Part shown: one piece after another, positions 22,175-26,900 of the stretch
How positions within the stretch are numbered: the first letter of the stretch is position 1
Layout: each line of letters begins with the position of its first letter
Source: Chloroflexota bacterium
GTDB lineage: Bacteria; Chloroflexota; UBA11872; VXOZ01
NCBI GenBank assembly: GCA_028874195.1
Contig: JAPPLM010000047.1
Coordinates: 94,979 to 158,978 of the forward strand
Length of the DNA stretch: 64,000 nucleotides
Direction of reading: 5' to 3'
Position numbers and translations under genes: made by a program
Notes under the pieces: model-generated
What the model was told of the DNA's origin: nothing
Databases searched by the model: none
Seen by the model: the letters and a program-made list of their open reading frames with translations, nothing else

Positions 22175-22335
22175 CGTAGTGCGGGGGGCTTCTCATCCGA
22201 CTTCTCGACAATCAGCGACATAGCGCGGGGGGCTTGTATCCTGCCTGGCCGTATGCCAATGAGGCGTAGGTTGCAAACCTGCGTTACCGTAGATTAGACG
22301 CGAAACGTTGTAGCGCGGGGGCTTGCCCCCCGCTC
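22175..22335. repeat. cluster of family D (GCGGGGGGCTT) and family C short repeats
   Basis: Three copies of a GTAGCGCGGGGGGCTT-like element at about 22175-22198, 22219-22245 and 22310-22335. The last is a near-perfect palindrome (GCGGGGGCTTGCCCCCCGC). A family C copy (GCGTAGGTTGCAAACCTGCG) lies at 22264-22283. The stretch fills the gap between the SDR and isochorismatase genes. Confidence 0.75.
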
Positions 22336-26015: not shown

Positions 26016-26145
26016 TGTAAAGCCCTGAAGAAAACGTCGACGAACTCACGTAGGTACGATGCGAGGGGCAAGCATGCCACGACTCCTAAACTTCCTAATT
26101 GATCCCTTTGTAGAGCTGAAACGACACGAGGTTAAAGTCGTTCGC

Positions 26146-26174
26146 ACCGGTAGCGCAGGTTGCAAACCTGCGCC
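26146..26174. repeat. dispersed hairpin repeat, family C (variant centre)
   Basis: GCGCAGGTTGCAAACCTGCGC form of the family C hairpin; the centre is shifted relative to the other copies. It ends just before the HMA-like reading frame. Confidence 0.8.
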
Positions 26175-26184
26175 TTCGCGGGAG

Positions 26185-26439
26185 ATGGACATCCATGTGG
26201 CAGGGCTCGCCTGTACCAGTATATGAGTGCGGCGCACGCAGGAGGGCCTTGCGTCACTCCCGGGCGTTCAGGAAATCAGCTTCAATCCCGCTGACGATAC
26301 CTTCACCGTGCGCTATCGGGGTGACGAGCTTGAATTCACAAACGTCAACGAAGCGATGCGCGGCAAGGTGGTAGCCAAACCGGTGCGCAAGCTGCTTGAT
26401 TGGATCAGTCGCCCATTTCGGCGCGCCGCGAACTCTTGA
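26185..26439 (+). CDS. small HMA-like (heavy-metal-associated domain) frame with one in-frame TGA: selenoprotein or pseudogene
   Basis: From ATG 26185 the frame reads MDIHVAGLACTSI, then TGA at 26224-26226, then VRRTQEGLASLPGVQEISF and on for 70 residues to the stop at 26437. The pattern before and after the TGA fits one HMA fold: G-x-x-C loop, helix with L-x-x-L-P-G-V, then a strand. In HMA proteins a second Cys stands two residues after the first; here the TGA is four after the first Cys. Three readings are open: TGA read as selenocysteine, a one-base nonsense mutation of TGT/TGC, or the part after the TGA translated from GTG 26227. A hairpin meeting loose bacterial SECIS rules follows the TGA. 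TGA is used as a normal stop elsewhere in the window. Confidence 0.4.
26236..26254 (+). promoter_or_regulatory. possible SECIS-like hairpin after the in-frame TGA
   Basis: ACGCAGG/CTTGCGT stem of seven pairs (one G-T) closing a five-base loop AGGGC, beginning 9 bases after TGA 26224-26226. A G stands in loop position 2, some 17 bases past the TGA. In bacteria such an element sits inside the coding region directly after the TGA. A short hairpin like this can arise by chance. Confidence 0.3.
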
Positions 26440-26534
26440 TTGCAGTGTTTGCACGTTCTTCCAAACCCTTTCCTCACCGGCGATGAGAGAAACGGAAGAA
26501 CCGACGTAGGTGAGACCCTACCCCTCCCCTTCGC

Positions 26535-26698
26535 ACTTCGACAGGCCTGTACTGAGCTTGTCGAAGTGCTCAGCGCAAACGGCTCAAACGGCCTCCAGTC
26601 GCTTCCTCCGTTCACACTTCGACAGGCTAGTGCGAACGGGACGGTTGGCCACCAGACACTTCCTCCATTCACACCTCGACAGGCTCAGTGCGAACGGG
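26535..26698. repeat. three copies of dispersed repeat family B
   Basis: Copies at 26535-26582 (long form with two arms, CTTCGACAGGCCTGTACTGA and its inverted partner), 26611-26640 and 26666-26698 (short form, TTCGACAGGCTCAGTGCGAA). The rest of 26440-26900 shows no gene. Together with the family C copies, this makes 25967-26900 a repeat-rich stretch between two operons. Confidence 0.8.
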
Positions 26699-26900
26699 AG
26701 AGTTTGCCCCAGGTTTCTCGTTCGCGACCACGCGCGTATTCTCAACGGCCCTAATGTACGTCGTAGGGTTCTGGACAATTCCCGCTTGTGTCTCTGCGCA
26801 ATTGCGGCTACAGTGAGACTGCCAGTGCCGTGGAATCGCCACTGCTGGAGCCATGTCAACTGGGGTTTCTCGTTTCCTATCGTGAAGAGGACGCAGACAC

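Follow-up and report, generated by a model that had tools for sequence, protein, structure and literature searches.

Gene Organization at the Locus

The window, by which we mean the whole stretch of DNA analyzed, covers 64,000 nt of the forward strand of a Chloroflexota bacterium contig (GCA_028874195.1, JAPPLM010000047.1, positions 94,979-158,978). It carries a small gene interrupted by an in-frame TGA, with the following features.

26064-26068, + strand: RBS-like AGGGG, read from the sequence, 5 bases upstream of ATG 26074
26074-26439, + strand: putative selenoprotein gene of 121 amino acids, with the predicted selenocysteine (Sec) as residue 51 and a TGA stop at 26437-26439
26149-26172, + strand: palindromic repeat copy lying in frame within the gene (around residues 26-33), present in all six genus members
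26212-26214, + strand: codon of Cys47, the first presumed metal ligand, invariant in the 28 aligned members
26224-26226, + strand: in-frame TGA, predicted Sec51 and second presumed ligand; TGA in the eight close relatives and Cys in the 20 distant aligned members
26236-26254, + strand: candidate SECIS-like hairpin of 7 bp with loop AGGGC at a distance of 16 nt from the TGA, which fits the published bacterial model

The initial annotation had proposed a shorter frame starting at ATG 26185 and had noted the poor spacing of its ribosome site. We rejected this start: the frame is open and conserved further upstream, as far as ATG 26074, and one of the sister species has CTT (Leu) at the position of ATG 26185, which therefore does not serve as the start codon. 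The objection to the ribosome site concerned ATG 26185 and falls because the start is now placed at 26074, right behind the AGGGG; purine-rich stretches are found at a similar position in the upstream sequence of most sisters. The start, the length of 121 residues, the TGA at codon 51, and the termination at a second TGA are identical in the six genomes of the genus. In the list of open reading frames of the window the gene is split, its downstream part beginning at GTG 26227. The heavy-metal-associated (HMA) pattern that had been seen to run across TGA 26224-26226 was confirmed by Pfam HMA (PF00403), which matches the protein with an E value of 8.6e-07 in an alignment spanning the TGA, at 28.7 bits against a gathering cut-off of 24.8.

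Conservation of the In-Frame TGA and Its Cysteine Counterparts

The genus sample consists of six genomes including that of the window, which are also all the genomes compared from its family and order, and the sisters with named records are metagenome-assembled genomes of Chloroflexi/Chloroflexota. The sister proteins are 69-76% identical to the window protein. Two genomes from another family of the class also have this TGA, in proteins of 38-41% identity, and there the site reads CETI-U where the genus has CTSI-U. Across the phylum 21 Cys homologues were identified, 7 with C-x3-C exactly at the C-x3-U site and 14 with C-x2-C. Eight TGA members and 20 more distant Cys members were aligned, giving 28 rows. 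An alignment of homologues across the TGA had been proposed as a check in the initial annotation, and it yields TGA in 8/8 genomes from two families and Cys elsewhere, so that every row holds either Cys or TGA in this column. The conservation of the TGA is far beyond chance. An assembly error is untenable as the source of the TGA, since eight separately assembled genomes carry it. In the tree, the long branch of one C-x3-C homologue (L101) lies close to the Sec rows. Viral contigs were also searched for relatives, and none were found.

The spacing of the first Cys from the TGA, C-x3-TGA in place of CxxC, had been held against a Sec codon. This argument does not hold because the C-x3-C homologues have the same spacing; as judged from the alignment, the C-x3-U spacing is a trait of the family and not a defect. 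The sequence downstream of the TGA is also maintained: pooled dN/dS is 0.08 just before the TGA and ~0.23 after it, and the codons past the TGA are under purifying selection.

Selenocysteine Machinery and the Search for a SECIS Element

The four components that the initial annotation had named for a search, selA, selB, selC, and selD, are all present in the genome of the window, with a tRNA-Sec of 67 bits carrying the anticodon TCA and with SelA, SelB, and SelD also encoded. The selD gene (L034, G000 C63:53216-54145) has an in-frame TGA of its own, as is familiar for this gene, within SCAG-U-AGKLGP, so SelD is a selenoprotein as well. SelA scored above the cut-off in 39 of the 41 genomes of the class, and the Sec trait is thus wider than the HMA-type gene. 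Because the conservation of the TGA, the equivalence of Sec and Cys at this site, the presence of the Sec machinery, and the selection after the TGA all agree, TGA 26224-26226 very probably encodes Sec. This supports the early suggestion of a Sec residue at or next to the second metal cysteine: sel genes are present, the homologues have Cys or TGA at the site, and the TGA is shared by independent assemblies. Ribosomes would decode the TGA as Sec via SelA, SelB, SelC, and SelD, and an RNA element just downstream, presumably a SECIS, would direct the insertion.

The bacterial SECIS model describes a loop of 3-9 nt with a G in the first two places, a stem of 4-16 bp, a UGA-to-loop distance of 16-37 nt, and a free energy no higher than -7.5 (PMC13188914). 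The hairpin ACGCAGG-AGGGC-CTTGCGT, singled out in the initial annotation, stands as it was described, with 7 pairs, a start 9 bases past the TGA, and a G in loop position 2; as a SECIS it is a candidate, and by itself the structure is no better than chance. Its energy is -8.1 kcal/mol, and the model is matched in four of the six genus species (the window and three sisters); in the two other sisters a stem mismatch is present and the energy falls to -1.4 and -4.2. The two genes from the other family have a stem of 8-9 bp with loop UGGCA at ~22 nt from the UGA, which fits the model and is close to the preferred loop. As many as 8.5% of the 1888 TGAs of the window have a SECIS-like hairpin with at least 7 pairs, and the folding energy was no better than that of shuffled sequences (z 0.82; z 0.04 in a second test). 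No covariation was observed in the hairpin pairs across the compared species, nor in two further hairpins that were counted, one with a longer stem and loop AGGG and the other with a bulged stem and loop CUUGC. As none of these hairpins covaries, no SECIS could be fixed, and the hairpin at 26236-26254 is a candidate only. Codons 52-64 show half the synonymous change found elsewhere in the gene (0.27 versus 0.54; permutation p ~0.011). The bounds of this segment were chosen after the alignment was seen, and synonymous change is even lower in the repeat region, so the reduction only suggests an RNA constraint.

HMA Fold and Proposed Role in Metal Binding

The AlphaFold model of the protein (pLDDT 71.6, moderate) contains a strand at residues 35-43, a helix at 48-60, strands at 65-71 and 76-82, and a helix at 88-99. 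These are the elements of the beta-alpha-beta-beta-alpha-beta fold with the exception of the last strand, where the model has a helix (102-112), and an extra N-terminal strand is predicted at 12-21. Pairing between the last and the first strand is a feature of the HMA fold; we therefore infer that the N-terminal strand fills the place of the missing one. Cys47 is modeled on a loop, and Sec51 opens the first helix. Among solved structures, the closest relatives of the protein in sequence as well as in fold are HMA domains or carriers for copper and mercury (best fold match E 2.8e-03). The CxxC metal motif of HMA is absent, the pair being C-x3-U here and C-x3-C or CxxC in the relatives. Elsewhere, the genome codes for a CopA-like ATPase that has HMA domains. 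The gene neighborhoods revealed neither a recognizable metal-handling gene adjacent to the selenoprotein gene nor a shared metal function, and the genus keeps its own synteny around the gene. In another class, Cys homologues (L089, L091, L092, and L093) recur near an endonuclease IV (nfo) gene and a LysR regulator.

The product would be a small HMA-like (ferredoxin-like) protein with no evident signal peptide, in which Cys47 and Sec51 would stand in for both metal cysteines of CopZ, MerP, and Atx1. Such a thiolate-selenolate pair could bind a soft metal, with Cu(I) as the first guess and Hg, Ag, or Zn as other possibilities, and the protein might carry or buffer the metal, possibly for the CopA-type ATPase of the genome; the metal, the partner, and the physiological role are all proposals. 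If the TGA is indeed read as Sec, a role as soft-metal carrier or buffer is reasonably likely, and we favor it because of the HMA score, the copper and mercury relatives, and the placement of Cys47 on the loop and Sec51 on the helix. A spacer of three residues between the two ligands is atypical of HMA, and metal binding is therefore not certain. Taken as a whole, the explanation that the gene encodes a 121-residue selenoprotein of the HMA type, which carries or buffers a soft metal in the cytosol by means of its Cys-Sec pair, has, in our estimate, a probability of around 0.6.

In the main alternative, the TGA encodes Sec in a protein with a redox function, where Cys47 and Sec51 would form a reversible selenenylsulfide on an HMA-derived scaffold. 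Known selenoproteins are mostly redox proteins, with many families carrying CxxU or UxxC (PMC2398784), the ligands are spaced one residue further apart than in the HMA metal site, and metal genes were not recognized nearby. However, HMA is a metal-binding family whose metal site is occupied here by the invariant Cys together with the Cys/Sec position, and a metal connection has been noted for other predicted HMA or transport proteins that bear Sec (PMC13188914). We consider this function possible but rather unlikely.

Readings of the TGA Other Than Selenocysteine

Two coupled frames would arise if translation stopped at the TGA and restarted at the overlapping ATG (26223) or at GTG 26227. The sequence ATATGAG, which supplies the overlapping ATG, is identical in the six genus members, but the frame opened by this ATG ends after 9 to 33 codons, a length that is not conserved, and GTG 26227 is GCG in four of the six species. 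The other family has ATCTGAG, which holds no ATG, and the Cys homologues are one unbroken protein. A restart is thus very improbable. The initial annotation had offered as its alternative to Sec a pseudogene, in which a single base change created a stop in an HMA gene. The interruption of the frame itself and the split made by the ORF caller agree with such an event, which is nevertheless contradicted by the presence of this TGA in eight genomes from two families, by a genus without any other stop or change in length, and by the purifying selection that acts after the TGA; we regard decay of the gene as even less probable than a restart. The in-frame TGA and its conserved continuation could finally reflect another amino acid, inserted through a changed genetic code or plain readthrough, and this can practically be dismissed, as TGA terminates this same gene in six of six species and other genes of the window as well, the 20 distant members all align a Cys, never a Trp, at this position, and the Sec machinery is present.

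Relationship to Known Selenoprotein and HMA Families

Sec has been described in heavy-metal proteins such as a UxxC cation ATPase and a C/SxxU putative mercuric transport protein (PMC2398784; PMC13188914), and the UxxU motif of NF041115 is already known among them (PMC13188914). The window protein resembles the HMA metallochaperones (PF00403; CopZ, MerP, Atx1, and the N-terminal domains of CopA) in its GLxC loop and in the location of the ligand pair between the first strand and the first helix. It differs from CopZ, MerP, and Atx1 in having C-x3-U where they have CxxC and, in the model, an extra N-terminal strand and a basic C-terminal helix replacing the last strand, and it scores far below every NCBIfam CopZ or MerP cut-off. 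The Cys relatives found across the phylum have the same build, with a short basic N-terminus and an invariant Pro, the GLxC loop, and the basic C-terminal helix.

NF041115, a UxxU metal-binding (seleno)protein, is likewise small and of the HMA type and has Sec in its metal site, and 20 of the 28 family members match it weakly. It carries UxxU and the window protein C-x3-U, the HMA part of the window protein gave no match to it at E <=1, and the best score among ten relatives scanned singly was 40.1 bits, short of the cut-off of 95. The cation ATPase, the mercuric transport protein, and NF045683 also have Sec in predicted heavy-metal transport proteins, but these are membrane or fusion proteins with two-residue spacing, whereas the window protein is short and soluble-looking, with terminal pieces of its own; the family reaches at most 29.8 bits with NF045683 (MerT/CopZ-like fusion), against a cut-off of 375. 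The window protein reaches no curated selenoprotein family. In the main text of the 2026 catalogue of prokaryotic selenoproteins (PMC13188914), neither a CxxxU motif nor the term HMA turned up, and the main texts of the papers searched do not mention an HMA-type C-x3-U family; an earlier mention elsewhere is possible.

Judging from these scores, far under the cut-offs of known models, the protein is filed as a new family within the known Sec-bearing metal-site proteins. It is an even call whether the fuller description applies, namely a new selenoprotein family of cytosolic HMA-like carriers whose C-x3-U pair would bind metal on a rearranged fold, the N-terminal strand replacing the last one, and which would be part of an unnamed Chloroflexota family with C-x2-C, C-x3-C, and C-x3-U members. 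Only a few HMA-type proteins with Sec have been recorded, and the C-x2-C, C-x3-C, and C-x3-U relatives form a natural series for asking why selenium enters a metal site. Annotation of the TGA as a stop would end the gene at residue 50 or begin it at GTG 26227, and the C-x3-U family would thus be missed.

Two loci of the same class (L130, G035 C93:24728-24898, and L131, G036 C34:279768-279935) encode another HMA protein, distinct from that of the window, that has a hydrophobic stretch at its N-terminus and the motif GMT-TGA-xx-C and is a candidate for a second, MerP-like UxxC selenoprotein.

Repeats in and Near the Gene

The repeat copy within the gene belongs to a dispersed palindromic repeat with the core CGCAGGTTTGCAACCTGCG, of which the window holds five copies (at 22265, 25988, 26149, 48497, and 49838), none being expected by chance. 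The CGCAGGTTTGCAACCTGCG repeat is found in the stretches around the gene in all five sisters and is absent from those of the other families. The in-frame copy is missing from the other-family Sec genes and from the Cys homologues; it follows the N-terminal strand and precedes the first HMA strand, adding ~10 residues at a point where the relatives have a short turn. Its presence explains the odd sequence upstream near ATG 26185. The core of this in-frame copy is inverted in the window species relative to the sisters (CK for LQ). In one sister, the intact gene is immediately preceded by a partial second repeat copy and the beginning of the HMA part (L057, G002 C23:61675-61761). Just downstream of the gene in the window, positions 26527-26708 contain short direct repeats around CACTTCGACAGGC, and similar sequence lies downstream in the sister loci.
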